A stretch of DNA of 64,000 nucleotides from Marivita sp. (GTDB lineage Bacteria > Pseudomonadota > Alphaproteobacteria > Rhodobacterales > Rhodobacteraceae): contig NZ_JALEGT010000079.1 of NCBI RefSeq assembly GCF_022763305.1, positions 62,001 to 126,000 on the forward strand, written 5' to 3'. Shown here piece by piece: positions 3,060-50,268 of this stretch. Numbering within the stretch: the stretch's first letter is position 1; each line of letters starts with the position of its first letter. Under the pieces are notes generated by a model. That model made no database searches, had not been told where the DNA came from, and saw only the letters and a list, made by a program, of their open reading frames with translations. Position numbers and translations under genes: made by a program.

Positions 3060-3062
3060 CGT

Positions 3063-5019: not shown

Positions 5020-5031
5020 CGCAAGCCCTCC

Positions 5032-6186: not shown

Positions 6187-6188
6187 GC

Positions 6189-6605: not shown

Positions 6606-6651
6606 CGCCCACACTCCCTGTCTGGAAATTCTCTGGAAATCCGAAACGCCC

Positions 6652-7062: not shown

Positions 7063-7397
7063 GTCGCCACCTCCTCGTCGCAGAGGCAGACCAGGAACCG
7101 CCCTCCGGGATCGGCCTCGGTCACCGAATTGATCCGAAACACCCGCGACGCATCCCGAAACCGCTGCTCCGGCAACGGCCGCACGGACTGGCCCTGCGGC
7201 GCTCCCCGCACCAGAACCCGAAACCCGGTTACCGACACCTGCCCGGCCTCACCGACACTTTCCCGCCCGGACCGGGGCTTCACCTCACCCCAGAGCACGC
7301 CCAGCACGACCCAGCTTTCATGCATCCCGCCCGCGCCATCGGGCACCGCGTCCAGCCGCTCCAGCACCAGCTTCGATGTCAGCCTCGGCCCGCTCAT
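7059..7397 (-). CDS. GTA g7: head-tail adaptor (head closure) protein
   Basis: The 112-residue frame starts at ATG 7397 (MSGPRLTSKLVLERLDAVPDGAGG), overlapping the g6 stop as ATGA. A head-tail joining family pattern is present: SWVVLGVLWGEVKPRSGRE followed by a C-terminal FRVLVRGAP...FRINSVTEADPGGRFLVC. It is placed between connector g6 and tail terminator g8, as in RcGTA. A longer frame reaching 7622 lies inside g6 and is rejected. Confidence 0.9.
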   Translation of the reverse strand: MSGPRLTSKLVLERLDAVPDGAGGMHESWVVLGVLWGEVKPRSGRESVGEAGQVSVTGFRVLVRGAPQGQSVRPLPEQRFRDASRVFRINSVTEADPGGRFLVCLCDEEVAT

Positions 7398-7987
7398 GCA
7401 CCAAACCCCAACCGCACCGGGCGATAGCGCGCAATCAGGCTCGTCACTCCGAACGGCATGCACCCCTGTCCCAGCGCGGTCTCGTCGCGGTATTCGTAGT
7501 AATGCGCCGCCAGCAGCATCACCGCCTGTGCCAGATCGGCCGGCAGATCGCCAAAGGCTTCGGCGATCCCCGCCCGGAACCGGATCTCCGCGCTCCCATG
7601 TTCGGGAATGGACGGCAGACACGCCCCGACCGGCACCAGCCTGGGGGCCTCCCCGTCCGGCAAGAGCGCATAACGCGAGACATCAACCACCGCGCCTGCG
7701 CCAAAAACATCGACAAGGGTCACCTGCGTGACCGCGCGGACCGGCGCAATCGGGATCGCCTGGCCAGTGACATCCCGCCAACGGTGCAGACTGCACAGAA
7801 AATCCCGCACCAACAGCGCCTTGCCCGTCCGCGCCTCGACCGCCGCCATCGCCGCCCGCAGAAACCCGCCCAGCAGGCCATCCTGCAGCCCGTCCTCGAC
7901 AAACCCGCTGCCCATCCGCAGATGGTCCCGCAACCGCGCCACCGGCAGGGCCGCCTCGGGGATCTGGCTCTCTTCAATCAAATACAT
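7394..7987 (-). CDS. GTA g6: head-tail connector, phiE125 gp8 family
   Basis: The 197-residue protein MYLIEESQIPEAALPVARLRDHLRMG... is the GTA connector below the portal. The N-terminal helical part (LRDHLRMGSGF...GFLRAAMAAVEARTGKALL) is typical of phage gp6-like connector proteins, and the middle contains PIAPVRAVTQVTLVDVFG. It starts 168 bases downstream of the capsid stop, the only sizeable gap in the g3-to-g15 stretch, and overlaps g7 by four bases. Confidence 0.9.
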   Translation of the reverse strand: MYLIEESQIPEAALPVARLRDHLRMGSGFVEDGLQDGLLGGFLRAAMAAVEARTGKALLVRDFLCSLHRWRDVTGQAIPIAPVRAVTQVTLVDVFGAGAVVDVSRYALLPDGEAPRLVPVGACLPSIPEHGSAEIRFRAGIAEAFGDLPADLAQAVMLLAAHYYEYRDETALGQGCMPFGVTSLIARYRPVRLGFGA

Positions 7988-8155
7988 CTTGTCTTCTCCG
8001 CAAACCCTGTCCCGTGCTCAGAGGCCAGTCAGTTGTCGGACGCGCGCCGCGGCCGCTGCTCGGACGGAGGGAGCGGCTAGACAACGCCGGCACTCCGGCG
8101 CGCGCCCCATGAGGAAGACGGCCCGCACCGCCCTCCCCATGTCCGCCATCACCGA

Positions 8156-9337
8156 TCAGGCGACAGCGAAGCGCAGCAGCTTGATGGCCGCGAAATCGCT
8201 CACATCGCCGCCCACCCGCTTTGTCGCGTAAAACAGCACATGCGGCTTGGCGCTGAACGGATCGCGCAGCACGCGCAGATCGGGACGTTCCGCAATCGTG
8301 TAGCCCGCGCGGAAGTCGCCAAAGGCAATCGCATCCGCCCCTGTCGCAATGTCCGGCATGTCTTCGGCAATCAGCACCGGATAGCCCAGCAGACGCGCAG
8401 GCTCTCCGCTGGTGAACCCGTCCGACCACAGGTGGCGCCCATCCGCATCCTTGAGCTTGCGCAGGGTGCCCGCCGTCTTGGAGTTCATCACGAAACTCGC
8501 ATTGGCGCGGTATTCCGCCCCCAGCGCATAGACCAGTTCGATCAGCGCATCGCCATTGCCGATAGACCCATCCACACCTGTTGGAACGTACCCGATATTG
8601 GTCCAGCTCCAGATCGCGTTGTCGACCGCCGGGTGAGTCAGAAATCCCTTGGGTTTGTCATTGCCATCCCCGGTGATGAACGCACCCGCCTCCGCCCGAG
8701 AGAACGTGTCCGCAATCTTGCCCGCCAGCCACGTCTCGATGTCAAAGGCCGTGTCGTCCAGCAACCGCTGGCTTGCCTTCGGCATCGCACTCAGTTCGTG
8801 CAGCTTGATTGAAATGCGGTCGATGGTTGGCGTTCCGGTTTCCGACCGCGAGGCAACCTCGTCCGCCCAGCCTGCACCCGCATTGCCCTGGTCGATCAGC
8901 ACGTCATAGCTCGACGCCTCGACATGCACGACCGTGGCCACCGCCCGAAGCGACGCGCTGCTCTTCAGCACGCCCTGAATGGTGTCCGACGTCACCGGGT
9001 CGATCAGAAACCCGCCATCGCTGTTGACCGCCGAGGACATGGATTTCACATCCATCTCCAACCCGCGCAGCCCGTCATCATCGCCCGTGCGCAGATAGGC
9101 GTCGAACGCCTGATAATGCAGGTCATCGCTGCGCATACCGCCCGCCAGAGCCGGTCGCCCGGCAAACCCTGTCTTTGTCTCGATCTTTGTCATTCGCTCT
9201 TCCTGTTCCTGAAGCTTTTTCCCGAAGTCATCCCGCTGGCGGCGAATGTCGCCCACCAGACCAGCCAAGGCGGCCCCCACCTGCGTGAACGGAGACACAT
9301 CTTCCCCGTGCCGCAACATTGTCCCGGTCTCACTCAT
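8156..9337 (-). CDS. GTA g5: major capsid protein, HK97 fold
   Basis: This 393-residue protein starts at ATG 9337 (MSETGTMLRHGEDVSPF). Residues about 15-75 form a charged, coiled-coil-like N-terminal region (RRQRDDFGKKLQEQEERMTKIETK) that in RcGTA is removed by the g4 protease. The mature capsid then begins around residue 90. The HK97-like body includes SAVNSDGGFLIDPVTSDTIQ and AEAGAFITGDGNDKPKGFLTH, both typical of phage major capsid proteins. It ends with YATKRVGGDVSDFAAIKLLRF, also typical. Frames extending to 9505 run antiparallel to g4 and lack a plausible start. Confidence 0.95.
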   Translation of the reverse strand: MSETGTMLRHGEDVSPFTQVGAALAGLVGDIRRQRDDFGKKLQEQEERMTKIETKTGFAGRPALAGGMRSDDLHYQAFDAYLRTGDDDGLRGLEMDVKSMSSAVNSDGGFLIDPVTSDTIQGVLKSSASLRAVATVVHVEASSYDVLIDQGNAGAGWADEVASRSETGTPTIDRISIKLHELSAMPKASQRLLDDTAFDIETWLAGKIADTFSRAEAGAFITGDGNDKPKGFLTHPAVDNAIWSWTNIGYVPTGVDGSIGNGDALIELVYALGAEYRANASFVMNSKTAGTLRKLKDADGRHLWSDGFTSGEPARLLGYPVLIAEDMPDIATGADAIAFGDFRAGYTIAERPDLRVLRDPFSAKPHVLFYATKRVGGDVSDFAAIKLLRFAVA

Positions 9338-9366
9338 CCCGTTTTTCCCATTTCCGAAGGGTGGCC

Positions 9367-9924
9367 CTAGCCGTCCACCAATGTCCGGCGCGCCTCTTCG
9401 ATCAGGCGCACCATCTCGCGCAGATCGGCCTCCACAGGGGTCTCCCCCTTGGCCGCCACCCGCGCACTGGGCAGCATCGGGAAGGTCACCAGCGACACCT
9501 CCCACAGCTCCAGTTCCGTCAGAACCCTGCGGCCCTGCTTGTCCTTGGTCGCCGCCTTGGTGCGATAGCCGATCGACAGCCCGTCAATCGCCCCCGCCGC
9601 CACCAATGCCGCCGCCTCCCGACCCCGTGCGACGCTGTCCAGCAACCGGCCCTTCACATAAAGCCCCGTGCCATCCTCGCGCACCTCATCCCAGATGCCG
9701 ATGGGCTGCGCCGGATCGTGCTGCCACAGCATCTTGACGGCACGCCCACTCTCGGCCAACCGCTTCAACGACGCCGCATAAGCCCCTGATACCACGATAT
9801 CATTCCCCTGATCGCACTGCCAGAAACGCGATGCATAGCCTTCGATCACACAGCCATCCGTCACGGTCACATCCGCATCGAACCGGCAGAACTTCCACTC
9901 CAGATCCATCCCAATCTCCCTCAT
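9367..9924 (-). CDS. GTA g4: HK97 family prohead protease
   Basis: The 185-residue protein carries the catalytic pattern of U35/S78 prohead proteases: WQHDPAQPIG with His69 and DGLSIGYRT with Ser117. It also has the family start EGYASRFWQCDQGNDIVVSGAY. The start at ATG 9924 forms an ATGA overlap with g3.5. It cleaves the capsid propeptide during head assembly. It lies immediately before the capsid gene, as in other HK97-type modules. Confidence 0.94.
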   Translation of the reverse strand: MREIGMDLEWKFCRFDADVTVTDGCVIEGYASRFWQCDQGNDIVVSGAYAASLKRLAESGRAVKMLWQHDPAQPIGIWDEVREDGTGLYVKGRLLDSVARGREAAALVAAGAIDGLSIGYRTKAATKDKQGRRVLTELELWEVSLVTFPMLPSARVAAKGETPVEADLREMVRLIEEARRTLVDG

Positions 9925-10148
9925 GGCGTCACCTGAACGAACTTCAGGAACACATCCGCCAGCACCGCCGCCGCCACGCCATAGACCGCCAGCCACACCC
10001 GCCGCTCCAACCGCTCGATCAGTGCCTCGATCCGGTCCAGCCGCCCCGAGATCCCTTCGAAGCGCAACAATGTCAGCCGTTCATGTGCCTCCAGCCGCAG
10101 CGCAGGCGCACAATCGAACGGCTCGTATCCCCCGCGCGCCTCACCCAT
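9921..10148 (-). CDS. GTA g3.5: small head-associated protein
   Basis: The 75-residue protein MGEARGGYEPFDCAPALRL... resembles the GTA gp3.5 family. RLTLLRFEGISGRLDRIEALIERLERRVWLAV (residues about 24-55) forms an amphipathic helix or coiled coil followed by a single hydrophobic stretch (VWLAVYGVAAAVLADVF). It overlaps the portal stop by eight bases and g4 by four. Its exact role is unclear. In R. capsulatus the homologue is needed for full GTA production, to my knowledge. Confidence 0.85.
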   Translation of the reverse strand: MGEARGGYEPFDCAPALRLEAHERLTLLRFEGISGRLDRIEALIERLERRVWLAVYGVAAAVLADVFLKFVQVTP

Positions 10149-11316
10149 CGGCCAGCACCGGCAAACCCAGCAGCGCGCGCTTCTCCGCCGCCGTCAAAAA
10201 CTCCGCCCGCGACACCCGCGCCCATTGCGCATCGCGTTCCGCCGCCAACGCGGGCACCTGATCCAGATCGGGTTTCAGCACCACCGCCTGCCCCGCATGC
10301 TCGGACAGCCAGGCCGACAAGGCCGCTGTCACCCGGGACACCAGCGGCAGCACCGTCAGCCGGTAGAACGCCCGATGCGCCTCGGCATAATTGGCGAATG
10401 TCGCCTCACCGGGAATCCCAAGCAGCATCGGCGGAACCCCGAACGCCACGGCAATCTCCCGCGCCGCCGCTTCCTTGGTTTTCTGAAACTCCATGTCCGA
10501 GGGCGAAAACCCCATTGGTTTCCAGTCCAGACCACCCTCCAGCAGCATCGGCCGGCCAGCATTGCGCGCACCCATATGGTGGCTCTCGATCTCCTCGACC
10601 AGCCGGTCATATTGCTCGGACCCCATGCCCGGCATGCCGTCCGTACCGCGATAGACGATTGCCCCCGAGGGCCGTGCGGCATTGTCCAACAATCCCTTGG
10701 ACCATCGCGACGCCGCATTGTGCACGTCGAGCGCCTGAGCCGCCGCCACCATCGGGCTCAGCCCGTAGTGATCGTCCTGCGGGTGAAACGCCTTCACATG
10801 GCAGATCGGCGGCGCGTCCTCGCTCATTTCGAACCGATGCGACTTGCCACCGACCCCATAGTCATAGGCCACAGGCCAACCATCCGATCCCGGCACCAGC
10901 TTCATCCGGTCAGACCGCAGCACATGCAGCTCGCCGGGCACACCGCCCGCACCCACAGCCTCGAAATACCCGTCCCCGGACAAGAGCAACTGCCCGTAGA
11001 ATGCCTCGAACAGCTCCGCCTGTCCCTGCGCCGGGTTCGGACGGCGCAACAGCTCCAACACCGGATGCATCTCGTACCGCTGGCTGGCGTCCTGCAAGAC
11101 CAAAGGCACCGCAGCGCCCGCCTCCGCAATCAGCTTGACCGCCCGAAACCCCACCGGGTTTCCGGTAAATCCCGTCCGCGTCAGACTGCCGGTATCCCGC
11201 GCCGACCAGGCCACGCGGCCCATGTTCTGCCAGGCCACGACCGGTCCGGTGGCGCTGGCCTTCGCCTCTGGCCGCGCCGCGTCCTTTCGCTCTCGTCGAA
11301 AGATGTTCCACACCAT
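10141..11316 (-). CDS. GTA g3: portal protein, HK97 family
   Basis: The 391-residue product (MVWNIFRRERKDAARPEAKA) has phage portal features: TGFTGNPVGFRAVKLIAEAGAAVPLVL near the N-terminus, HPVLELLRRPNPAQGQAELFEAFYGQLLLSGDGYFEAV, and a C-terminal RVTAALSAWLSEHAGQAVVLKPDLDQVPALAAERDAQWARVS. The portal forms the dodecameric DNA entry ring. It is separated from g2 by 271 bases that hold a strong hairpin. Start and length fit the family. Confidence 0.95.
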   Translation of the reverse strand: MVWNIFRRERKDAARPEAKASATGPVVAWQNMGRVAWSARDTGSLTRTGFTGNPVGFRAVKLIAEAGAAVPLVLQDASQRYEMHPVLELLRRPNPAQGQAELFEAFYGQLLLSGDGYFEAVGAGGVPGELHVLRSDRMKLVPGSDGWPVAYDYGVGGKSHRFEMSEDAPPICHVKAFHPQDDHYGLSPMVAAAQALDVHNAASRWSKGLLDNAARPSGAIVYRGTDGMPGMGSEQYDRLVEEIESHHMGARNAGRPMLLEGGLDWKPMGFSPSDMEFQKTKEAAAREIAVAFGVPPMLLGIPGEATFANYAEAHRAFYRLTVLPLVSRVTAALSAWLSEHAGQAVVLKPDLDQVPALAAERDAQWARVSRAEFLTAAEKRALLGLPVLADG

Positions 11317-11356
11317 GCTGCCACGCTCCTCGCAAATCCCGTTTCAGTTCCGGCAC

Positions 11357-11391
11357 GGCCGGAACGGTCTCTCGAACCGTCCCGACCGGCC
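11357..11391 (-). other. Strong hairpin between GTA g2 and g3
   Basis: The 271-base gap between g2 and g3 holds an inverted repeat: GGCCGG at 11357-11362 pairs with CCGGCC at 11386-11391, and inside it ACGGT (11364-11368) pairs with ACCGT (11376-11380) around a 7-base loop. No T-run follows on the minus strand, so it is not a classic terminator. It may be an RNA processing or stability element at the head of the g3-g15 message. I found no convincing gene in 11317-11587. Confidence 0.5.
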
Positions 11392-11587
11392 ACCCGCCGG
11401 AGACCCGACCCCGCTGGTCCCCGGCCGCGCCAGACACGGCGTCTTTCTCCACAGCCCGGGCCAGCGCCCCGCTCCGCTCCCAGATCACCGGTCCGTCCAA
11501 AAAATCCGAGGCGCGGTGCCACCTGCGCCCGTCGATGAAATCCACCCTACCGATCAAAGGTTAACGGCTGGAAACCATTGCGTGCGC

Positions 11588-13012
11588 TCACCGTTGCAGC
11601 GTCCGCACCCGCGGCACACGCCACTCTGCCGCCCGCGCGATCACAAGATCGGTCAAGGCCCAGACCAGCGCATCCAGCCGGTCCGGAGACCCGGCCCCCT
11701 GATAGCCCAGCCGCGTCATCTGGCACATCTCGTCCTCCAGCGCGTCGAACACCCCATGATGCGTCACCCGCCCCTGCTCGTAGAGCGCAGCCACCGGCTC
11801 CGCCCGCGCGCTCTTGGACTTCGACGCATGCACCCGCACAACCGGCACCAGTGGATCGACCTGCCGCAACACGGCCTCGACCATGTCACCCCCCTGATTG
11901 ACCTCGGCCACCAGCGCCTGCGCCCCCCAGCGTTCCATCGCGGTGATCGCGCGCCGCGCCCAGACCAGCGGCGACACGCCTTGTAAGGTGCAATCTTCAA
12001 GCACGACCGCCCGCCAATCCTGCGGAGGCCCGGCGCTCACGACACCCGCCACGACGATACCGCAGGCATCCGACCCCTTACCGCTCGAAGCGGACGGATC
12101 GACCGCCACCACTACGCGATCAAAGCGCGGCAGGATCGAACAGCGTGCGTGCTCCAGCGCCTCCATCGTCCAGAGAGCCCCGTCCGCCTGCTCCAGCAAA
12201 TCCCCGTCCAGCTCCTGCCGTCCCAGCCGCGTGCCCGCATAGCGCGCCCGCACTTCGTCAAGAAAGGACGACGCAAGATACGCCCGGTTCGCCTCTGTCG
12301 GTGCCCGCGTCACAGCGGTGGACGGCGCCGCAAGCAGATTGCGCAGCAGCTTCAGGTTCCGCGGTGTCGTCGTGACACACATGCGGGGATGCTTTCCCAG
12401 CCGCAGCGTGAACTGCAACATGTCCCACGCCTCCTGCGCCCGTTTCCATTTCGCCAACTCGTCCACCCACGCGGCGTCGAATTGCGGACCCCGCAGCGAG
12501 TCCGGATCATGGGCAGAACACGCAACCGCTTCGGCCCCGTTCGGCCATCGCAGCACCCACCGCGTGGCCAGCCAGTCCGGTCGTCGATCCGGCGGCGAAC
12601 AGGCCATGATCCCGCTGTCCCCAAAGATCATCACTTCCCGCACCTGATCGAGCGTTTCGCCCACAAGGGCCACGCGGCGCGCCCGGCCTGTGTCCCGTGG
12701 ACGCGCGCCTTCCACCTCGGAGCGCACCCATTCGGCCCCGGCGCGGGTCTTGCCCGCGCCGCGCCCGCCAAGGATCACCCAGGCGCGCCAATTGCCCTTG
12801 GGAGGCAGCTGATGCGGATGGGCCCAGAAGTCGAACAGATACGGCAGCGCCAACAGCGCTCCGGGCACCTCCTCAAGGCTGGTCAGAAACGCTTCCTTCT
12901 CGGCAACAGGCGCGGAGGCGATCAAGTCGGCACCTGACCGCAACCCGCGCCGCGTCGAGGTCGAGCCCGTAGGCTCCTTCGATGGCGGCATGTTCTCGGC
13001 GATGTCTTTCAA
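11588..13012 (-). CDS. GTA g2: large terminase subunit
   Basis: The 474-residue protein has an N-terminal ATPase with Walker A GGRGAGKT (residues 82-89) and Walker B FDAAWVDELAKW. The C-terminal RNase H-like nuclease has VVVAVDPSASSGKGSDACGIV as its first acidic strand and ends near SPDRLDALVWALTDL. It packages DNA into the GTA head by a headful mechanism. The start is uncertain: ATG 13012 or ATG 12991 both lie inside g1, so the two genes overlap by about 120-140 bases. No obvious later start lies before the conserved FDFWAHPHQLPPKGNW segment, apart from a TTG. Confidence 0.94.
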   Translation of the reverse strand: MKDIAENMPPSKEPTGSTSTRRGLRSGADLIASAPVAEKEAFLTSLEEVPGALLALPYLFDFWAHPHQLPPKGNWRAWVILGGRGAGKTRAGAEWVRSEVEGARPRDTGRARRVALVGETLDQVREVMIFGDSGIMACSPPDRRPDWLATRWVLRWPNGAEAVACSAHDPDSLRGPQFDAAWVDELAKWKRAQEAWDMLQFTLRLGKHPRMCVTTTPRNLKLLRNLLAAPSTAVTRAPTEANRAYLASSFLDEVRARYAGTRLGRQELDGDLLEQADGALWTMEALEHARCSILPRFDRVVVAVDPSASSGKGSDACGIVVAGVVSAGPPQDWRAVVLEDCTLQGVSPLVWARRAITAMERWGAQALVAEVNQGGDMVEAVLRQVDPLVPVVRVHASKSKSARAEPVAALYEQGRVTHHGVFDALEDEMCQMTRLGYQGAGSPDRLDALVWALTDLVIARAAEWRVPRVRTLQR

Positions 13013-13465: not shown

Positions 13466-14209
13466 TCAGAAAATCCCCCGCCGCAGCAGGTTCAGCCCGA
13501 GAATCAGGAACACGTAAAGCACAAGCTTGCGGAAGCCTTCGTTCGAAAACCGCGACCGCAGCTTGGCGCCAAGCGTGAAACCCAGCAGCGTCGGCATCAC
13601 CAGAACAAGCGAGAGAACGCCCAGCTCCGGCGTCAGAAAGCCTTGCTGCACATAGGCCAGCGCAAAGGGCACCCCGCCGATGAACAAGAGCAGCCCTACC
13701 GCCCGAACGAACTCGTCCTTCGGCACCTGCCGCGCGCTCATGTACATGATGACCGGGGCCACCCAGACCCCGGACAACCCGCCCAGAATCCCCCCGGCCG
13801 TGCCAAAGCCCAGTTGCCCGATCTTGTCGAACCGGTCCGGCAGCCGCGGCATGGTGAACCGCAGGTTCAGCACGGCAAAGGACACGATGGATATGCCCAA
13901 GGCAAGGAAGATCACGCGGTCAGAGACCTCGGCCGACAGGATCACCGTAACAAAGACGCTGCCCCCCAACGCCGCGGCAAAAAGCCAGTAGCGCGCGAAC
14001 GCGCCCCGGATGTCTCCCATTGTCCAGACCTGCCACGCATTCGACACGACAATCGGCACCAGCCCCAGCGCAATGGCCGTCCGTGGGTCGATCACCATGG
14101 TCAGCATACTGATCGCCGCCGTGGGCAACCCGATGCCAACCAACCCCTTCACGGACCCGGCCACGACAAAGACAACCGCTCCGATCAGCAGCAACTCGAC
14201 AGGGCTCAT
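13466..14209 (-). CDS. TauE/SafE family membrane transporter
   Basis: The 247-residue product is very hydrophobic, with about eight predicted membrane segments in two halves. The first half carries VAGSVKGLVGIGLPTAAISML and the second GTAGGILGGLSGVWVAPVIMY. These two glycine-rich repeats are the hallmark of the TauE/SafE (DUF81) family of anion exporters, linked elsewhere to sulfite, sulfoacetate or other organic acids. The substrate cannot be told here. It lies 31 bases downstream of mltG on the same strand and upstream of the GTA cluster, with no functional link seen. Confidence 0.88.
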   Translation of the reverse strand: MSPVELLLIGAVVFVVAGSVKGLVGIGLPTAAISMLTMVIDPRTAIALGLVPIVVSNAWQVWTMGDIRGAFARYWLFAAALGGSVFVTVILSAEVSDRVIFLALGISIVSFAVLNLRFTMPRLPDRFDKIGQLGFGTAGGILGGLSGVWVAPVIMYMSARQVPKDEFVRAVGLLLFIGGVPFALAYVQQGFLTPELGVLSLVLVMPTLLGFTLGAKLRSRFSNEGFRKLVLYVFLILGLNLLRRGIF

Positions 14210-14240
14210 ACCGCCTCCGTCGGGTCAGAGCGGCGCGGGC

Positions 14241-15401
14241 TCAATTCTCCCGCTGCGCTTCAAGCGCCCTGTAGGCCGCCACATTGGCGTTGTGCTCGGC
14301 CAGCGTCACCGCGAAATTGTGCCCATCCGTAGGATCCAGCGTCTTGGCCACGAAGAAGATGTAATCCGTATCGTCCGGATTGAGCGCCGCCTCGATAGCC
14401 GCGCGTCCCGGATTGGCAATGGGCGTCGGCGGCAAACCGTCGATCACATAGGTGTTCCACGGCGTCTCCGCCCGCAATTCGCTCTGCCGGATGCCACGGC
14501 CCAACACACCCTGCCCGCGCGTGATGCCATAGATCACCGTCGGGTCGGTCTGAAGCCGCATGCCCTGCTCGAGGCGGTTGACGAACACGCTGGCCACGAG
14601 AAACCGCTCGTCTGGCGTGCCGGTTTCCTTCTCGATGATCGACGCCATGATCAGCGCCTCCTCCGGGCTTTCATAGGGCAACCCATCCTGCCGGTTCGCC
14701 CAGGCCTCGGCCAGGATGCGCTCCTGCGCCGACTCCATTCGCGCCAAAAGCTCCGTCCGGTCGGTGCCCGGCATGATCTCGTAGCTGTCCGGAGCCAAAG
14801 ACCCCTCGGCCGGAATATCGGCAATCTCCCCCTCCAGCACATCGATCTGGTTGAGTTCCTGCACGATCTGCCAACTGGTCACACCTTCCGCCAGCGCCAC
14901 ACGATACCGCGTGTCCGGTTCCGCCTTCACCCGCGTGTAGTCCTCCGGAACGGCATCCTCCGCCGGGTTGAATTCGGCAATCTCGACAAACCGGCCCGTC
15001 GCCGGATCAAGCTCGCGCACCTGCACGGTCGCCCGTGCGATGCTCACCCGGTAGACAACCTCCGTGCCACAGGTGCTGGCCCCCCCACGCGTGACGATGT
15101 CGACGATCTGCTCCATGGATGCACCTTCCGGCACAAGGAACGATCCCGCCTTCAGTTGCTGGGTCTTGCCGGCATAGTCCGCCCCGATCCGCAACAGGGC
15201 CGCGCTCGACACCGCGCCATCCGCCGCCAAGTCTTCGGACACGGCCCGGAAGTTGCTGCCCCGATCCACCTGCACGCAGATCGCCTGTTCCAACGGGCCT
15301 TCGGACGCATATTCGTTCTGCGCCCACAGAAGGACGCCGCCCAGCAGGAAGACGAGCACGACCAGAAAGGTCAGCGCATTGGACGCGATGTGACGCCACA
15401 T
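14241..15401 (-). CDS. mltG: Endolytic murein transglycosylase MltG
   Basis: The 386-residue protein has one N-terminal membrane anchor (residues about 10-27, LTFLVVLVFLLGGVLLW) and a periplasmic YceG domain. The conserved ASIIEKETG segment supplies the catalytic Glu257, followed by FVNRLEQGMRLQTDPTVIYGI, the family signature, and PYNTY-like WNTYVIDGLPPTPIANPG. MltG cuts nascent glycan strands in the inner membrane and limits peptidoglycan chain length. It starts three bases after the fabF stop, so the two are almost certainly co-transcribed, an arrangement common in Rhodobacteraceae. Confidence 0.95.
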   Translation of the reverse strand: MWRHIASNALTFLVVLVFLLGGVLLWAQNEYASEGPLEQAICVQVDRGSNFRAVSEDLAADGAVSSAALLRIGADYAGKTQQLKAGSFLVPEGASMEQIVDIVTRGGASTCGTEVVYRVSIARATVQVRELDPATGRFVEIAEFNPAEDAVPEDYTRVKAEPDTRYRVALAEGVTSWQIVQELNQIDVLEGEIADIPAEGSLAPDSYEIMPGTDRTELLARMESAQERILAEAWANRQDGLPYESPEEALIMASIIEKETGTPDERFLVASVFVNRLEQGMRLQTDPTVIYGITRGQGVLGRGIRQSELRAETPWNTYVIDGLPPTPIANPGRAAIEAALNPDDTDYIFFVAKTLDPTDGHNFAVTLAEHNANVAAYRALEAQREN

Positions 15402-15404
15402 GGT

Positions 15405-16667
15405 TTAGCGATCCACCTTTCCGAAGATGACGCTGGCATTGGTGCCGCCGAAGCCAAATGAGTTGGACAGCGCATAGCGGATCTCGCGCTCGCGCTTGAC
15501 CTTGGGTGCCAGATCCACAGCCGTGTCGACCGCAGGGGTATCAAGGTTCAAGGTCGGCGGCGCCACCTGATCGCGGATCGCAAGGATCGAGAAAATCGCC
15601 TCGATCGCACCCGCTGCCCCTAAAAGGTGTCCCGTGGCCGACTTGGTTGACGACATCGTCACTTTGCCTGCCGCATCGCCCATCATCCGCTCGACCGCGG
15701 CCAGTTCGATCACATCCGCCATGGTCGAGGTGCCATGCGCATTGATGTAGTCGATATCCGCAGGCTCCAGCCCAGCATGTTTCAGAGCCGCGCGCATCGA
15801 CCGCTCGCCACCTTCACCGTCTTCGGAGGGGGCCGTAATGTGATAGGCATCGCCCGACAGGCCATACCCGCAGACCTCGGCATAGATCTTCGCCCCGCGC
15901 GCCTTGGCGTGCTCGTATTCCTCAAGCACCACAATGCCCGCGCCTTCGCCCATGACAAACCCATCGCGGTCCGCATCGTAAGGACGGCTCGCTGCCTTGG
16001 GATCATCGCCACGCTTGGTCGACAGCGCCTTGCAGGCGTTGAACCCGGCAATCCCGATCTCGGAAATCGCAGCCTCGGCCCCACCGGCCACCATCACGTC
16101 CGCATCCCCGAACATGATCAACCGCGCCGCATCCCCGATCGCGTGCGCACCGGTCGAACAGGCCGTCACAACCGCATGGTTCGGCCCCTTGAAGCCGTAC
16201 TTGATCGACACATTGCCCGAAATCAGGTTGATCAGCGCGCCCGGAATAAAGAACGGCGACACCCGGCGCGGGCCCTTGTCGCGGATCAAGAGCGCGGTTT
16301 CGGCGATGGAGTTCAGACCACCGATCCCCGAGCCGATCATGACGCCCGTGCGCAACCGGCTTTCCTCGTCCTCGGGCATCCAGCCCGCATCCGTCACCGC
16401 CTGTTGTGCCGCCGCCATGCCGAAGAGGATGAACTCGTCGACCTTGCGCTGTTCTTTTTTCTCAAGATAGGCGTCGGGGTTGAACGTCCCGTCCGAGCCA
16501 TCGCCATAAGGCACTTCGCAGGCATAGGTCGTGGCCAGATGGCTTGCGTCGAACTTGGTGATCGTGCCCGCCCCGGACTGCCCGTCCAGAATGCGCGACC
16601 AACTCGCCTCGACCCCGTCCGCCAACGGTGTCACCAATCCCAAGCCCGTCACAACTACTCGACGCAT
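15405..16667 (-). CDS. fabF: 3-oxoacyl-[acyl-carrier-protein] synthase II
   Basis: The 420-residue condensing enzyme starts at ATG 16667 (MRRVVVTGLGLVTPLADGVE). The catalytic Cys170 lies in VTACSTGAHAIG, one histidine in YINAHGTSTMADV, and the second in SATGHLLGAAGAIEA, giving the Cys-His-His triad of KAS II. It elongates acyl chains, including cis-vaccenate precursors, in the cytoplasmic fatty acid synthase II cycle. A longer frame to 16871 would run into the palindromic repeat array and is rejected. acpP, fabG and fabD are not in the window. Confidence 0.97.
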   Translation of the reverse strand: MRRVVVTGLGLVTPLADGVEASWSRILDGQSGAGTITKFDASHLATTYACEVPYGDGSDGTFNPDAYLEKKEQRKVDEFILFGMAAAQQAVTDAGWMPEDEESRLRTGVMIGSGIGGLNSIAETALLIRDKGPRRVSPFFIPGALINLISGNVSIKYGFKGPNHAVVTACSTGAHAIGDAARLIMFGDADVMVAGGAEAAISEIGIAGFNACKALSTKRGDDPKAASRPYDADRDGFVMGEGAGIVVLEEYEHAKARGAKIYAEVCGYGLSGDAYHITAPSEDGEGGERSMRAALKHAGLEPADIDYINAHGTSTMADVIELAAVERMMGDAAGKVTMSSTKSATGHLLGAAGAIEAIFSILAIRDQVAPPTLNLDTPAVDTAVDLAPKVKREREIRYALSNSFGFGGTNASVIFGKVDR

Positions 16668-16784
16668 GGTGTTGCCCTTCCCTCGAATGCTCTTGCCCGC
16701 TCTTACCCCGTTCGCGCCAGCGCCCGCAAGACTCCACCCGTATGGCGGGGCATTCTTGCCGCTTTGCCTGATGTCCGCCCGCCC
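16668..16784. promoter_or_regulatory. fabF upstream region
   Basis: These 117 bases separate the fabF start from the first palindrome unit. The presumed fabF promoter must lie here or within the repeat array. I see no clear -35/-10 pair. A weak ribosome site (GGGAAGG, 16674-16680 on the minus strand) precedes the fabF ATG. Confidence 0.35.
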
Positions 16785-17024
16785 GTTTCCGTCAACGGAA
16801 ACGATGGATGCGTCAACGCATCCTGCACTGAAAACCGCCGCCCGAGACCGTGTTTCCGTCAACGGAAACATGCACCGCGTCGACGCGTTACGCCGTGAAC
16901 CCGATCCGGCAGCGCCCTGTTTCCGTCAACGGAAACATGCACCGCGTCGACGCGGTGCCCCCCACCCACGGTCACCAAGCCGCTGTTTCCGTCAACGGAA
17001 ACAAACGATGCGTCGACGCATCGT
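16785..17024. repeat. Tandem array of four composite palindrome units (about 67 bp period)
   Basis: Four units each carry palindrome A, GTTTCCGTCAACGGAAAC, at 16785-16802, 16852-16869, 16919-16936 and 16985-17002. Each is followed by palindrome B with a shared core GCGT(C/A)(G/A)ACGC and variable arms: 16806-16823 (arms GGATGCGT), 16876-16887 (CGCGTC), 16939-16958 (GCACCGCGTC) and 17005-17024 (ACGATGCGTC). Centre to centre, A to B is 21 bp in every unit, and successive units are 67, 67 and 66 bp apart. The arms of B change on both sides together, so symmetry is conserved rather than sequence. The last B starts five bases from the stop of the neighbouring gene. This is not CRISPR: the units differ, the intervals hold no conserved spacer length evidence of acquisition, and there are no cas genes. 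Confidence 0.85.
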
Positions 17025-17028
17025 CCGC

Positions 17029-17835
17029 CTATCCCCAGCGATCCCCCAGATCCGCCTTCGCCCGGTCGATCCAATGTTCCTGCAACCACCGCGTCGGCTT
17101 GGCATAGCGGATCAGCGATCCGCGATACCCCGCCACCGCCTCGGGCATCTTGGGTCGCCCGTGAAAACACACCACCCGCGCGTCCTCAGGCAAGCGCGCG
17201 GGATGCAGGTAATTGCCCGGAAACGGGTTGCAGTCATACTTGAAGCTCACCACCCAATTCCCTGGAATATAGGTGAAAACCTCGTTCTCCATTGCCTTGT
17301 GCGAGGTATAGCGCTGCTCCGACCCCCGCGCGATCTCGACCTCGCGATAGGCATCCGCCGCCAAGTCGTTATACAGAAACCCGTGCACCGCCGGATCATA
17401 CCGAAACACCGACCCGTGCCCTGTAGGCCGCCCCTTGCGCGCCTCGGTCCAGTCATGGCGCATCACCACATGCCCCGGAGCCACGGTCAGCAGATCATCC
17501 AGCGACCCGGTGATCACCACATCCAGATCGAACCCCAGAACCGGCCCGTCCAGATCGGGGATCAGTCCCGGCTTGAACAGCGACACCTTGCGCATCGCCC
17601 CCTGCCGGTTCGCCACCTTCAAAGCCGCCGCCATCGGCTCGGCGAACGGCTCGACCGGCAGATCGAGAACCTCGATGTCGGGATGCAGCCCCTCGGCATG
17701 TTCCGTCATGCACAGAAATCGCACCGGGCAGGACAGGTTGCGCCGCACGCCGGAATAAAGCCGGTTCACATAATCCGGCCCGAACAGCGTGCCCCATTTG
17801 ATACAGGCGACAGTGGCATGAGATGGCATGGTCAT
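17029..17835 (-). CDS. Glycosyltransferase-like protein with DxD motif
   Basis: The 268-residue protein starts MTMPSHATVACIKWGTLFGPDYVNRLYSG. It has an acidic DLD motif at residues 103-105 (VLGFDLDVVITGSLDDLL) and YDCNPFPGNYLHPARLPEDARVVCFHGRPKMPE near the end. The GPDYVNRL opening and DxD strand resemble GT-A fold sugar transferases of the GT8-like type that use nucleotide sugars and a metal. The acceptor is unknown and no polysaccharide cluster surrounds it. Starts at ATG 17835 or 17829 are both possible. The palindrome array begins five bases after its stop. Confidence 0.65.
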   Translation of the reverse strand: MTMPSHATVACIKWGTLFGPDYVNRLYSGVRRNLSCPVRFLCMTEHAEGLHPDIEVLDLPVEPFAEPMAAALKVANRQGAMRKVSLFKPGLIPDLDGPVLGFDLDVVITGSLDDLLTVAPGHVVMRHDWTEARKGRPTGHGSVFRYDPAVHGFLYNDLAADAYREVEIARGSEQRYTSHKAMENEVFTYIPGNWVVSFKYDCNPFPGNYLHPARLPEDARVVCFHGRPKMPEAVAGYRGSLIRYAKPTRWLQEHWIDRAKADLGDRWG

Positions 17836-17877
17836 GCGTCCGCTTAGCAACGGTTTGCGCGAATGACCAGATGCCGC

Positions 17878-17906
17878 TTGGCCCCCGCGCATCCGCCGCC
17901 TATACT
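17878..17906 (+). promoter_or_regulatory. Predicted sigma-70 promoter for rsgA
   Basis: TTGGCC at 17878-17883 and TATACT at 17901-17906 are separated by exactly 17 bases on the plus strand. A start site near 17913 would give a leader of about 130 bases before rsgA, containing the small frame at 17942. Prediction only. Confidence 0.5.
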
Positions 17907-17941
17907 GCCCATCAACCGAAGCTGAGATGCAGGAGGACATG

Positions 17942-17977
17942 ATGGAGATTGTGCGCACCCTGCGGGTGTCCGGCTGA
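17942..17977 (+). CDS. Possible leader peptide upstream of rsgA
   Basis: An 11-codon frame, MEIVRTLRVSG, starts at ATG 17942 with AGGAGG at 17931-17936, the strongest ribosome site in the leader, and stops at 17977. It lies downstream of the predicted promoter and 64 bases before rsgA. A second ATG at 17939 would add one residue. It could couple or attenuate rsgA translation, but no clear terminator or anti-terminator was found. It may also be chance. Confidence 0.3.
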   Translation: MEIVRTLRVSG

Positions 17978-18041
17978 TCGCCGCACCCGGACCCTTTGAA
18001 CGCCCCATCGGGGCAGGTTTCTCAGCGACAGGACGACTCCC

Positions 18042-19079
18042 TTGACCACATATACCCTGACCGACCTCGGATGGTCGGACCGTTTCGCGCGTCAGCTTAC
18101 CGAAGACGACGCGTCCCTCACCCCCGCCCGCATCTCCGAGGTGCATCGCAGCCAGCTCATCGCGCTCTCCGAGGCGGGCGATCTGAGGCTCATCCCCACC
18201 GACAGCGCCGGGGCCTATGCCGTGGGCGACTGGGTGCTGACCGACGGCACCAGCGCGCTCCGCCGGCTCGACCCCGTCACCGACCTGCACCGCCGCGCGG
18301 CGGGTCACGCCGTGGGCGCACAGCGCATCGCGGCCAATGTCGACACCGTGGGCCTTGTCACCTCGTGCAACGCCGATTTCAACGTCGCGCGGCTGGAACG
18401 CTATCTGGCGCTGGCGCTGGCCTCGAACGCGCTGCCGCTGGTGATCCTGACCAAGGCCGATCTCTGCGATGACCCCGACAGCTTCAAACGGCAGGCCGAA
18501 CGCCTGTCCCCGCTGGTCACCGCCATCACCGTCAACGCCAAGGACCCCGAAGATGTGGCGCGCCTCAACGCATGGTGCAGCACCGCGCAAACCCTGGCCC
18601 TCCTTGGGTCGTCAGGTGTCGGCAAAACCACCCTGCGCAACGCGCTCACCGGCGAGAAAGAAGCGACCCAAGGCATCCGCGAGGACGACGCCAAGGGCCG
18701 CCACACCACCACGCACCGCGCCCTGCGCCCCACGCTGGCCGGTGGCTGGCTGATCGACACGCCGGGGATGCGCGAGTTGCAGCTTTCAGGCACCAGCGAC
18801 GGTCTGGAGGAGCTCTTCGACGACATCGAAACCCTCGCCGCCCAGTGCAAGTTCACCAACTGCGCGCATGACACGGAACCCGGCTGCGCGGTCAAGGCCG
18901 CCTTGGCCGATGGCACGCTCGACCCTGACCGGCTGGACCGCTGGCAGAAACTGCGGCGCGAGGATCAATACAATTCGGAAACCATCGCCGCCGCCCGCGC
19001 CCGTCAGAAATCCTTTGGCCGGGTTGTAAAAGAGGCGATGAGCACGAAAACCCGCTACAAACGCGGGTACGAGGACTGA
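18042..19079 (+). CDS. rsgA: Ribosome small subunit-dependent GTPase RsgA
   Basis: The 345-residue protein shows the circularly permuted GTPase order of RsgA (YjeQ): G4 TKAD at 137-140, then G1 GSSGVGKTT at 189-197, G2 region HTTTHRA and G3 DTPGM at 239-243. The C-terminal zinc motif has Cys269, Cys274, His276 and Cys282 (C-X4-C-X-H-X5-C). An N-terminal OB-fold precedes the GTPase. RsgA tests and releases late-maturing 30S subunits in the cytoplasm. It is preceded by a predicted promoter and a short leader frame, and is transcribed alone. Confidence 0.96.
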   Translation: MTTYTLTDLGWSDRFARQLTEDDASLTPARISEVHRSQLIALSEAGDLRLIPTDSAGAYAVGDWVLTDGTSALRRLDPVTDLHRRAAGHAVGAQRIAANVDTVGLVTSCNADFNVARLERYLALALASNALPLVILTKADLCDDPDSFKRQAERLSPLVTAITVNAKDPEDVARLNAWCSTAQTLALLGSSGVGKTTLRNALTGEKEATQGIREDDAKGRHTTTHRALRPTLAGGWLIDTPGMRELQLSGTSDGLEELFDDIETLAAQCKFTNCAHDTEPGCAVKAALADGTLDPDRLDRWQKLRREDQYNSETIAAARARQKSFGRVVKEAMSTKTRYKRGYED

Positions 19080-19221
19080 TCAAATCAGCGGGTCGCAAGG
19101 CCCGCTCTTCCGTGACCGCCCAATCGAAGAAACACTCGCGGAAAACGCAATCGCTGCCATAAGCCCAAGGCTGCTGGGTTCCACCAGATCGGCGCCGAGC
19201 CAGAAGCCGTCGCCTTCTGTC

Positions 19222-19332
19222 CTGTCAGAGTCTAGTCCGATTTAGCCTGACAGCACATTTCAAAATCGAGACAAAAATAAAATTGACATCAGTTTCATTT
19301 TTTAGGCAACCTGATTTCGGTCGACAGGTTGC
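19222..19332 (+). promoter_or_regulatory. Promoter/operator region of the TetR-ligase-crotonase operon
   Basis: The 375 bases between rsgA and the tetR gene contain an inverted repeat GCAACCTG (19306-19313) - 11 bases - CAGGTTGC (19325-19332), a size suited to a TetR dimer. A TTGACA box lies just upstream at 19283-19288 in an AT-rich stretch, without a good -10. A second inverted repeat, CTGTCAG (19222-19228) with CTGACAG (19247-19253), lies further upstream. The remaining bases (19080-19221 and 19333-19454) show nothing else. Confidence 0.5.
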
Positions 19333-19454
19333 TGAGTTGCAGAGCGTCGCAAACGTCTTGGCGCAAACAGACCCATCGTCTCGGCACGTGTCGACCGGCC
19401 AATCCTTGAGACGTGCTCAGCGCGTCATGTCGTCGTCCGGAGACCAACAAGAGA

Positions 19455-20123
19455 ATGAACAGTCTTTCAACTCTCCCTGTGGGCCACCAAGGCGGTCAGA
19501 GTGCGTTTTGCGATTGGCTGGCTGGCGATCGTGAAAACCTACGCAAGGGAGAGCGCACTCGCACGGACTTGATGGTCACCTGCGCGCGGCGTCTTGCTTC
19601 GGAGCCATTTGATCGCCTCACAGTTTCGGGGCTGTGCAAGGCGGCAGGCGTCGCACACGGGACATTCTACGTCTACTTTGAAAATCTGAACACACTCCTG
19701 TCAGAGGTCCTTGGCCTCTTTGTCGACTACGTTCAAATCCGGATGCGGTCGGCCGCGCGCCAGGGCGAGGACCCCGTCCGGGATACAACGGCGGCCTATT
19801 ACACCCTGTTCCAGGCGAATGCCGGGTTGATGAAATGCCTCGTCATGGGCATCGACGCCTTCCCCGAGGCGCGGGCTGCATTCCAGCGTCTCAACAACGA
19901 CTGGGCGAAAACCGTCGTCCGCGCCCTGAAAAGGCAGAACAAGATCGGACAGTCCACCGAAGACGAACTGATGCGCCGGGCTTATGCGCTTGGCGGCATG
20001 GTCGATCAGTATTTGACCGCCCTCTTTGTGACCGAGGACCCGTGGATTGCCGCGATCTCGCAGGATCCTGACGCTGTGATTTCGACCCTTACAACACTCT
20101 GGATGAAAGGCATGCAGGAATGA
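19455..20123 (+). CDS. TetR family transcriptional regulator
   Basis: The 222-residue protein has a TetR-type helix-turn-helix: LASEPFDRLTVSGLCKAAGVAHGTFYVYFENLNTLLSEV, which includes the recognition helix GTFYVYF. The C-terminal ligand domain is not of a recognised subfamily. I chose ATG 19455, preceded by AAGAG. A GTG at 19413 would add 14 residues. Its stop overlaps the ligase start as ATGA, so it is the first gene of the operon and probably represses it, with an acyl- or aryl-CoA as a plausible inducer. Confidence 0.85.
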   Translation: MNSLSTLPVGHQGGQSAFCDWLAGDRENLRKGERTRTDLMVTCARRLASEPFDRLTVSGLCKAAGVAHGTFYVYFENLNTLLSEVLGLFVDYVQIRMRSAARQGEDPVRDTTAAYYTLFQANAGLMKCLVMGIDAFPEARAAFQRLNNDWAKTVVRALKRQNKIGQSTEDELMRRAYALGGMVDQYLTALFVTEDPWIAAISQDPDAVISTLTTLWMKGMQE

Positions 20124-21424
20124 GCTTGCTGCGCGACGGGCACATGCTGCCACTGGATGACATCGCCGAACACCGACAGCGCGCCTGGGAACGGCAAAGC
20201 GCCTATGTCGCCGAAAACTCGGCGTTTTACCAAAGGCTTTGGGATGGGCAGAAACCGCCCACACGGCTCGAGGACATCGCCAAATTGCCGTTCTCGGACA
20301 AGGCGGGGCTGCGACTGTCGCAGCCTGCGTCGCCCCCTTTTGGTGACTACCTCGCAGCAGCACCCGAAAAGGTCAGCCGGCTGCACCGGACATCGGGAAC
20401 CACCGGTCAGGCGATGAACCTCGCCATGAGCGCGCAGGATTGCAACATCACCGAAATCGTCGGTGGGCGCGCGCAATCACTGGCAGGCTTGAAAGCAGGC
20501 ACGATGGTCGTCCACTGCCTGAATTATCAGATGTGGATGGGCGGGCTCACCGACCACCTCACGCTGGAGCGCACAGGCGCAACCGTCGTTCCGTTCGGCG
20601 TCGGGTCGACCGAGTTGCTGATCAATACGATATTGGAAACCGGGATCACGGCGATTTCCTGCACGCCCTCCTATCCCGCCGTTCTGGAACAGGTGATCAC
20701 CCAGAAATTCCCGCATCTCTCCCCCCGTGATCTCGGGCTGAAGCTGGGCCTGTTCGGGGGCGAGCCCGGCATCGACGATCCGGCCTTCCGCAAACGCCTG
20801 AGCGACACCTGGGGGATGCAGCCGCGCAACGCGAATTACGGCGTTTCGGATGTGTTTTGCAATTTCGCGTCCGAATGCGCACACGACACCGCACTGCATT
20901 TCGTGGCTCATGATGTGCTGCATGTGGAACTGATCGATCCAGACAACGGCACACCAAAGCAGGCTGTGGCCGGCACTGAGGGAGAGCTGGTGCTGACCCA
21001 TCTCAGTCGTGAATGCCAGCCGCTGGTTCGGTTCCGGACGGGTGACATCATCCGAGTTGAGAACACGGACACCTGTGCCTGCGGTTGCGCCGGGTTCCGG
21101 TTCAGAGTGGTCGGTCGGTCGGACGACATGGTGGTCGTGCGGGGGCTGAACATGTTTCCCACCATGGTGGCCGCCATCGTGACAAGCTTTGACGAAATGT
21201 CGGGCGACTACCGGATCGTTCTGAACGCGCCGCCCCCTTATGACGTGTTGCCCGTGCACGCCGAGCTGGCCGCAGGCAGACAGGATGACGGCACGCTATC
21301 CCGGCGTATGGAAGAGCGCTTCAAGCAAAAGCTGGGAGCGACCATCAAGGTGAAGATCGTCCCTCATGGAACATTCCCGCGCACCGAAGGCAAAACGAAA
21401 CGTGTGATCAGGAGCTATGAATGA
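20120..21424 (+). CDS. Phenylacetate-CoA ligase (PaaK)-like AMP-forming acyl/aryl-CoA ligase
   Basis: The 434-residue enzyme has the adenylate-forming P-loop RTSGTTGQ (TSGTTG at 91-96), a central GLFGGEPG and ANYGVSDVF segment, and the C-terminal RFRTGDIIRVENTDTCACGCAGFRFRVVGRSDDMVVVRGLNMFPTMV pattern. These features fit the PaaK family, including the GRSDDM(V/L) hinge motif. It would activate a carboxylic acid, probably aromatic, to its CoA thioester with ATP. It overlaps both neighbours by four bases. No other paa gene is nearby, so the substrate is open. Confidence 0.88.
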   Translation: MSLLRDGHMLPLDDIAEHRQRAWERQSAYVAENSAFYQRLWDGQKPPTRLEDIAKLPFSDKAGLRLSQPASPPFGDYLAAAPEKVSRLHRTSGTTGQAMNLAMSAQDCNITEIVGGRAQSLAGLKAGTMVVHCLNYQMWMGGLTDHLTLERTGATVVPFGVGSTELLINTILETGITAISCTPSYPAVLEQVITQKFPHLSPRDLGLKLGLFGGEPGIDDPAFRKRLSDTWGMQPRNANYGVSDVFCNFASECAHDTALHFVAHDVLHVELIDPDNGTPKQAVAGTEGELVLTHLSRECQPLVRFRTGDIIRVENTDTCACGCAGFRFRVVGRSDDMVVVRGLNMFPTMVAAIVTSFDEMSGDYRIVLNAPPPYDVLPVHAELAAGRQDDGTLSRRMEERFKQKLGATIKVKIVPHGTFPRTEGKTKRVIRSYE

Positions 21425-22182
21425 CGAGCTTTACCTATGACACCATCCGCTCGGACGTGACGGCCGATGGTGTCAGGACGATTTCCCTGAACCGGCCGCA
21501 TGCCATGAACGCGATGAACCGACGCCTGATCGACGAGATCTCGGTCGCGTTCGACGACGCCAATCGCGACCCCGGAACGCGGGCCATAATCTTGACCGGT
21601 GAAGGGCGCGCGTTCTGTGCGGGGGATGACAGGCACGAGCATGTGCACCCTGAGACCGAAGAAGACGCCCGTGCCGTCGTCGACGCGATCCAGCGCGCGA
21701 CCGTTGCCATCGTCATGGGGGCAAAACCGGTGGTCGGCGCGATCAATGGCTGGGCCGTCGGCGGTGGTTTCGAATGGGCAATCAATTGCGATTTTCCGAT
21801 CTGGGCGGAAAGCGCCAAGGGTTTTTTTCCCGAGGTTTCGCTCAACCTCTTCGTGACGGGTGCGGTGACCTCGATCTTGCCCGCGATTGTCGGCCCGGTG
21901 AAAGCACGCGAGATGCTCTTCCTCGGGCAGCGTTATTCTGCCGCTGAACTGCACGAGATCGGCGTCGCCTGGAAGGTGGTGCCGGATGATGAACTGCTGG
22001 TCGAAGCAGAAGCGGTTGCAACGAAACTGGCGTCGCTTCCAACGCTCTCCACCCGGGCAATGAAACGTGTGCTGAATCAGGCAATGGCCGGCGGGCTGCA
22101 CCAAGCGCTTCAACTGGAAACAGAAGCGACCGTTGCAGGGTTCCTCGACCCGGAAACGACGCGACTTCTCAAGGATTTCTAA
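21421..22182 (+). CDS. Enoyl-CoA hydratase/isomerase (crotonase) family protein
   Basis: The 253-residue protein has the crotonase pattern: LTGEGRAFCAGDDRHEHVHPE (oxyanion hole near AFCAG), PVVGAINGWAVGGGFEWAINCDFPIWAESAKGFFPEVSLNLF and LGQRYSAAELHEIGVAWKVV. GAINGWAVGGGFE is the second oxyanion hole region. The usual second catalytic acid of hydratases appears as Glu in FPEVSL. It starts inside the ligase stop (ATGA) and would act on the CoA ester made by that ligase. The exact reaction (hydration, isomerisation, ring cleavage or dechlorination) cannot be assigned. Confidence 0.85.
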   Translation: MTSFTYDTIRSDVTADGVRTISLNRPHAMNAMNRRLIDEISVAFDDANRDPGTRAIILTGEGRAFCAGDDRHEHVHPETEEDARAVVDAIQRATVAIVMGAKPVVGAINGWAVGGGFEWAINCDFPIWAESAKGFFPEVSLNLFVTGAVTSILPAIVGPVKAREMLFLGQRYSAAELHEIGVAWKVVPDDELLVEAEAVATKLASLPTLSTRAMKRVLNQAMAGGLHQALQLETEATVAGFLDPETTRLLKDF

Positions 22183-50221: not shown

Positions 50222-50227
50222 GCGCGG

Positions 50228-50267: not shown

Positions 50268-50268
50268 A

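Follow-up and report, generated by a model that had tools for sequence, protein, structure and literature searches.

The window, a stretch of 64,000 nucleotides from a Marivita genome, contains an array of palindromes between two genes of the minus strand (Table 1). In the direction of transcription, the array, spanning 16784-17024, starts 4 nt past the stop codon of the gene at 17029-17958 and ends 117 nt before the start codon of fabF. The palindrome GTTTCCGTCAACGGAAAC, referred to here as A, is found four times, at 16785, 16852, 16919, and 16985, with spacings of 67, 67, and 66 bp. Every copy is paired with the core of a second palindrome, B, which lies further along the plus strand at a dyad distance of 21 bp, and the units read B, then A in the transcript of the minus strand. 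With up to 3 mismatches allowed and both strands counted, GTTTCCGTCAACGGAAAC shows 11 matches at 6 places of the window, compared to 0.03 expected by shuffling. An earlier, sequence-only reading of this DNA described four composite units with a dyad spacing of 21 bp and a period of 67/67/66 bp, which the pattern search against shuffled sequences bears out. It further described the arms of B as variable yet complementary and the center of B as GCGTCGACGC in every unit. The former description holds for three of the four units, where each arm has 7 to 8 paired bases, and fails for unit 2 (16872-16891), in which pairing is limited to the inner 4 bp (CGCG-TCGA-CGCG). The latter fails for unit 1, which is centered on GCGTCAACGC.

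Table 1. Hairpin elements and neighboring genes in the window
Feature	Position	Strand	Remarks
Array unit 4, stop-proximal	16984-17024	-	B hairpin 17005-17024, A hairpin 16984-17003
Array unit 3	16918-16958	-	B GCACCGCG/CGCGGTGC, then A
Array unit 2	16851-16891	-	A intact, B broken beyond the inner 4 bp; 47.7 bits, the weakest of the four
Array unit 1	16784-16824	-	B AGGATGCG/CGCATCCA, then A
Gene whose 3′ end bears the array	17029-17958	-	No Pfam match; start uncertain (17709 or 17958)
fabF (beta-ketoacyl synthase), downstream of the array	15405-16667	-	Start codon read from the sequence
Hairpin pair of the same class, spacing 22	38699-38740	-	12 nt past the stop codon of the methylmalonyl-CoA mutase gene (38753-40882)
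B-A pair of the same class	50228-50268	+	6 nt past the stop codon of the gene 48824-50221; orthologous place in most Marivita species
Triple back-to-back hairpins, spacing 21 and 22	58085-58152		In a convergent gap; stop codon of 58158-59363 at a distance of 5 nt

The orthologues of the gene at 17029-17958 terminate beside the same element. Throughout the genus, the region upstream of fabF (16668-16760; CTCTTGCGG...GTAAGAGCGGGCAAGAGCATTCGAGGGAAGGGCAACACC) shows strong conservation; the fabF promoter may be located there. A scan for canonical terminators from 16500 to 17300 yields a single match, located inside a gene at 17172-17193, compared to 0.8 in shuffled sequences, and none in the array. 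CRISPR was considered and rejected: the eight neighboring proteins (13466-22182) match no defense-system model in PADLOC, in agreement with the lack of cas genes noted in the first description. The window shows no Rfam match at gathering scores, and no plasmid DNA resembling the array was found. Positions 1-13000 contain a run of minus-strand genes, including one for a terminase-like protein (11588-13012), which we take to resemble a gene transfer agent cluster.

The window holds two more copies of A, one at 38700 with 2 mismatches and an exact one at 50250 on the minus strand. The A core TTTCCGTNNACGGAAA occurs at 27 places of the 4.43-Mb genome, 6 of them within the window, and at each of the 21 other places, distributed over 19 stretches, a second palindrome adjoins it on one of its two sides, as judged by eye. 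A covariance model of the element, described below, finds 108 matches in the whole genome with the strands counted apart. The triple element has stems quite different from those of A and B. Two more stem-loops with TCGA loops are located in a convergent gap at 60664-60717, with a spacing of 32 instead of 21 to 22. Tandem arrays also exist outside the window, one with 67-bp units, three of which are near-identical and alike in model score (L274:935-1176), and one with three units and a period of ∼103 bp (L031); at L046:8246-8692, six successive model matches carry differing stems. Local expansion of this kind looks like tandem duplication. For the array in the window, the spacers differ between units, and its duplication is therefore deduced from the period alone.

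Other repeats accompany the hairpin pairs. At 50268-50305 and in six stretches (L332, L335 to L337, L339, and L343), CTGGGGGCCAGCCCCCAG (or GGGGCTCTGCCCC) followed by CCCCGAAGTATTTT or a similar sequence is found directly after the pair; this third element recurs at the same place in the genus and gives the impression of an independent repeat resembling a terminator. A longer inverted repeat of the GTCGTCCATTGGGCTTGAACCAATGGCGCACCAATGGACGAC type adjoins the pair in four stretches (L016, L033, L237, and L341), and because of such neighbors at several sites, gene ends resemble mosaics made up of various hairpin repeats.

The geometry of the element emerges from a scan for stem-loop pairs that ignores sequence and covers 844 kb of the genome, comprising the window plus 39 stretches, each of 20 kb. 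Neighboring tetraloop hairpins with 7 or all 8 of the 8 stem pairs formed are found 24 times at a center spacing of 21 and 14 times at a spacing of 22, compared to 1 and 0 in one block-shuffled copy, and each of the remaining spacings from 14 to 33 accounts for 0 to 4 pairs. When four inner pairs are required, the intergenic set consists of 19 pairs at a spacing of 21, 13 at 22, 1 at 23, and 2 at 24; none occurs at 17 to 20 or 25 to 27 in the 844 kb, and a single intragenic pair is left, at spacing 18. Without this filter, scattered pairs appear at 14 to 18 and 25 to 32 too, with at most 2 at each spacing. The 44 candidate pairs at spacings of 21 to 24 are reduced to 35 by the inner-pair filter and to 34 by removal of the chance-looking pair L088:13166; among the 9 pairs lost to the filter, some look real (L045:3307 and L046:8318) and others may be intragenic. 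The stretch L077, which overlaps the window, is left out of the spacing scan, the intergenic pair counts, and the site counts.

With loops of 3 to 8 nt allowed, 32 of the 38 close intergenic pairs consist of two tetraloop hairpins, and the linker measures 1 or 2 nt in 32 of 38 (18 and 14 pairs, respectively). The spacing of 21 bp corresponds to two hairpins with 8-bp stems and 4-nt loops joined by a 1-nt linker. The two DNA turns with which the first description equated this distance are not needed, and two-turn phasing was set aside as superfluous given the packing of hairpins with minimal linkers. The 70 loops of the 35 pairs include 34 of TCGA and 13 of TCAA, and the contiguous stem is 8 to 10 bp long in 58/70. 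The stems are of many kinds, the most common being GTTTCCG/CGGAAAC and GATGCG/CGCATC. A closing stem joining the outer flanks was also considered for this genome and discarded, with at least 4 base pairs in 4/34 pairs compared to 7.1 in shuffles. A fixed order with B first from the stop codon is mostly true where only one 3′ end is near; it was rejected as a rule since L081:14480 has A first.

The 34 pairs correspond to 27 sites in the 844 kb, all of which adjoin the 3′ end of a gene as called by a simple codon-usage caller written for this analysis rather than by an annotation. At 21 of the 27 sites, a stop codon is no more than 15 nt away, compared to a mean of 1.8 and a maximum of 9 in 5,000 random intergenic placements, and at 22 the distance to it is 3 to 18 nt. 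Convergent gaps hold 15 of the sites (null mean, 3.1; maximum, 9) and divergent gaps hold none (null mean, 7.2; minimum, 0); none of the 34 kept pairs is inside a gene. These counts establish the position of the element in the genome sequence and support the suggestion in the first description that the hairpins stand at a 3′ end. Position alone is not special, since stem-loops in all bacteria studied there are reported to favor convergent gaps and the 50 bp that follow stop codons (PMC1590033). Of the 27 sites, 1 has 4 or more T among the 10 nt after the element. In a simple scan, canonical terminators occur at 3/10 co-directional gene ends with the element compared to 20/267 without it and at 2/26 convergent ends compared to 20/98, numbers too small to carry weight.

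The A/B stem family is characteristic of the genus. The A core is present in all 17 Marivita genomes, in G127 only once; among 119 genomes from the other genera of this family, a single one has it, there once and with a different center. The exact composite pattern is found in at least 104 stretches of named genomes; the matches listed belong to Marivita or to alphaproteobacterial or Rhodobacteraceae bins, apart from two records. Those two are titled Tannerella sp. (a metagenome bin; L146) and halophilic archaeon (L169) and may represent a mis-binned contig and chance. The covariance model (R1) was built from 21 elements of the own genome: 23 were aligned with MAFFT, the misplaced rows window:58090 and L044:15579 were dropped, and the rest were realigned. 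It gives 10 to 108 matches per genome in the 17 Marivita genomes (strands counted apart) and, under stricter filters at an E value of 0.001, matches in 2 of 148 other genomes, namely, G002 and a weak one. The elements underlying it were picked for good stems and the A/B type, which makes its own covariation count partly circular.

Comparison of three orthologous sites across the 17 species addresses the stems directly. At the fabF site, a recognizable element is located 4 to 5 nt past the same stop codon in 14/17 species, with a weak or altered A hairpin in some. The distance to this upstream stop codon is fixed, whereas the distance to fabF varies, and the copy number is one unit in most species, two in G132 and G134, and four here. 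The element of site 50228 is found at the orthologous position in 13/17 species, and all three hairpins of the triple site can be aligned in 11/17; partial forms of both exist in a few more. The outer span of the triple site is 43 nt in all 11, one of which has spacings of 21 and 22 in place of 22 and 21. Double-sided stem changes amount to 8 pairs at the triple site (2.0 in shuffles; reached in 0/500), 4 at site 50228 (0.6; 0/500), and 4 at the fabF site (1.8; 9/500); since the shuffles ignore the relatedness of the species, these values are counts and not probabilities. The sets omit loci in which the element or part of it is missing (fabF site, 3/17; triple site, 6/17; site 50228, 4/17), and the copies at the fabF site were located by the inner B stem, so that those inner pairs are selected as well. 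As far as these sequence comparisons reach, the pairing of the stems is kept by selection and the geometry persists as the stems change, which supports the earlier notion of a symmetry under selection. The A stem shows sequence conservation beyond what pairing requires, for which recent spread or sequence-specific recognition is offered as an explanation.

In some species, the orthologous place holds a copy with decayed pairs or no element at all. Where it is missing or reduced, other hairpins are often seen by eye at the same 3′ end, AGATTTTTC..GAAAAATCT in L241 and L242 and GGGGGCCAGCCCCC in L243; L360 retains two hairpins, preceded by an inverted repeat with A and T runs at its flanks. Such replacement suggests an equivalent role of these hairpins in ending transcripts.

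Predicted folds are in line with separate hairpins at the simpler sites. Unit 4 (16984-17024) folds as two separate hairpins with −23.2 kcal/mol on the minus strand and −21.9 kcal/mol on the plus strand. Two separate hairpins are likewise predicted for the pair at 50226 on both strands and for the one at 38697 on the minus strand; the energies of these pairs and of unit 4 (folded from 16982) are well below those of shuffles. The energy of the triple element is also well below that of shuffles, and on both strands its minimum-energy fold omits the middle hairpin. When the array is folded as a whole, the predicted minimum joins unit 4 to unit 1, the outermost ones, and does not form every hairpin locally; this model speaks for structure as such and not for eight hairpins that simply fold one by one.

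The geometry extends beyond Marivita. A scan of 1.03 Mb from 55 other genera of the family, made up of 60 stretches of which several are very short, with the gene caller trained on the own genome and covering 72%, shows 10 hairpin pairs at spacings of 17 to 27. Four are intragenic; the six intergenic ones, from 4/55 genera, all lie at gene 3′ ends with spacings of 21 to 23 and stems unrelated to A and B. The stretch from G002 (L294) had been chosen for a prior model match; the other three genera came up unprompted. On these sequences, the geometry is wider than the genus and sparse, and the A/B stem family is a Marivita expansion. One stretch, L321:10770-10870 (G072), contains four back-to-back hairpins with unrelated stems and spacings of 21, 22, and 23 between convergent genes. 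In L246 and L250, both from G002, pairs with AAATTCC/GGAATTT stems follow just past stop codons, and by eye their flanks seem to pair with each other and so enclose both hairpins, unlike those in the own genome.

Several known systems resemble the element in part. Like the REP and BIME sequences associated with RAYT transposases (GTAG type), it consists of short dispersed intergenic palindromes that form dimers at gene 3′ ends and often in convergent gaps (PMC3733652). The partners of most REP dimers are described as 20 to 100 bp apart, unlike the linker of 1 to 2 nt here, and a few families have partners 1 to 2 bp apart, as in the Marivita element (PMC3733652). The CGTC REPs, which are mostly from alphaproteobacteria, come close in other respects: they are characterized by 8- to 9-bp stems, loops of 4 to 5 nt, a mostly dimeric arrangement, a position less than 20 bp from 3′ ends, and the lack of a dedicated transposase, and the CGTC-4 dimers of Wolbachia have 1 to 2 bp between partners (PMC3733652). 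The terminal tags of both groups are missing, however. Among 136 stem ends (68 hairpins, shared ones counted twice), GTAG is found at none, nor within 8 nt, and CGTC, TGTC, or CCTC stands directly at none; within 8 nt, CGTC occurs 4 times, CCTC 2 times, and TGTC once. The only CGTC of the element itself is formed by the top of the stem and the loop (CG-TCRA). A Y1 transposase (PF01797) is matched neither in the own genome nor in 13 of the 17 Marivita genomes, and 4/17 have one. The element is thus by definition neither a GTAG REP nor a CGTC REP. The untagged REP-like families of Brucella, Bordetella, and others are, by their description, likewise dispersed palindromes without terminal tags; the main text of that survey makes no mention of Rhodobacter, Roseobacter, or Rhodobacterales (PMC3733652).

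The second group of relatives is the clustered-hairpin terminators, which are described as adjacent hairpins near the stop codon that do not need a U-tract (PMC8355165). Clusters of two hairpins are the most common form, and for other bacteria a terminator function of such U-tract-free clusters near stop codons has been proposed (PMC8355165). The Marivita element, with two or more adjacent hairpins near a stop codon, shares this arrangement and differs in its narrow geometry and in the dispersal of one stem family over the genus. Canonical intrinsic terminators share the stable hairpin past the stop codon; a T-rich stretch in the place of their U-tract is found here at 1 of the 27 sites, as mentioned above. 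With many dispersed intergenic palindromes that prefer gene 3′ ends and convergent gaps, the element also belongs among REP-like sequences in the broad sense. This agrees with the REP/BIME-like nature proposed in the sequence-only reading. The same reading had named occurrence at this place only as a finding that would make the element a chance local duplication; the element is instead found at many genomic sites and in all 17 Marivita genomes searched. The involvement of a RAYT considered there finds no support in the own genome, and the proposed protein-binding array is weakened by arms that covary rather than keep a half-site. In the best-supported reading, the element, with its tight geometry, would function in the manner of a REP dimer or of a terminator made of two hairpins. 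Searches of open-licence papers found nothing on this element.

We propose, with a probability of roughly 60%, that the element is a bidirectional tandem-hairpin module of mRNA 3′ ends, which acts at the level of the transcript in termination, exonuclease protection, or both. Here, a pair or run of tetraloop hairpins with ∼8-bp stems and a linker of 1 to 2 nt stands directly after the stop codon, and once RNA polymerase has passed the stop codon, the two hairpins would fold back to back. These may set the mRNA 3′ end by stopping transcription or helping to stop it without a U-tract, alone or with Rho, and may protect the end by blocking 3′-to-5′ exonucleases. One element could serve both genes of a convergent pair because the stems and the self-complementary TCGA loop read alike on both strands. 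The array at 16784-17024 would be the 3′ element of the gene 17029-17958, probably duplicated in tandem to four units in this species, and the A/B stem family would have spread within the genus by copying. Position and covariation are compatible with termination and exonuclease protection alike and do not separate the two; the action in the transcript is what we infer.

Dispersed repeats of this kind could also be selfish, that is, REP-like sequences that an enzyme copies and that the host tolerates next to gene 3′ ends while gaining no function from them. One stem family dispersed in one genus (27 core places; 17/17 genomes), local tandem expansions with periods of 67 and ∼103 bp, and the same positional bias as described for REPs elsewhere (PMC3733652) fit this explanation. 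It is nevertheless judged rather unlikely, as the compensatory changes at orthologous sites suggest that pairing is kept after insertion, many elements share the geometry and not the stems, and the own genome is without a Y1 transposase match. An action of the DNA itself, in which pairs of palindromes about two helical turns apart bind a protein such as gyrase or a nucleoid protein or extrude cruciforms, is improbable. Arms that vary with pairing kept and without a conserved half-site argue against it, as does the location of 22/27 sites 3 to 18 nt from a stop codon, and minimal linkers explain the spacing of 21 to 23; this stands against the self-complementary centers (TCGA in 34/70 loops), the near-constant dyad spacing, and the frequency in convergent gaps, on which such an action would draw. 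Supercoils collect between convergent genes, and gyrase reportedly binds the BIMEs of E. coli.

Two further explanations are very improbable. A leader or operator function of the array for fabF would account for its location 117 nt upstream of the fabF start. Its position, however, is fixed to the upstream stop codon (4 to 5 nt in 14 species) while copy number and distance to fabF vary, and the same class of element follows stop codons elsewhere, including those of convergent pairs without a downstream gene. Ribosome stalling, in which translation termination is impeded by a hairpin no more than ∼15 nt away from the stop codon, as reported for REPs of E. coli, would fit the 21/27 sites in this range and by itself leaves the tandem pair and the symmetry on both strands without an explanation; it is hardly to be expected as the function of the element.

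Returning to the tandem-hairpin module of mRNA 3′ ends, a more general form of this proposal is advanced only tentatively and is doubtful at present: a family-level type of mRNA 3′ end with a pitch of 21 to 23 nt, exchangeable stems, and mostly strand-symmetric loops, which would comprise U-tract-free bidirectional terminators and perhaps a dedicated factor that measures the pitch. To our knowledge, transcript ends in GC-rich alphaproteobacteria have been little mapped. Gene ends without the element seldom bear canonical U-tract terminators, with 20/267 co-directional and 20/98 convergent ends in the simple scan. The element further represents a genus-specific repeat family without a Y1 transposase match in most genomes of the genus. 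As the elements are numerous and sharply defined and their stems naturally varied, they would allow a direct test of whether hairpin geometry alone sets mRNA 3′ ends on both strands.
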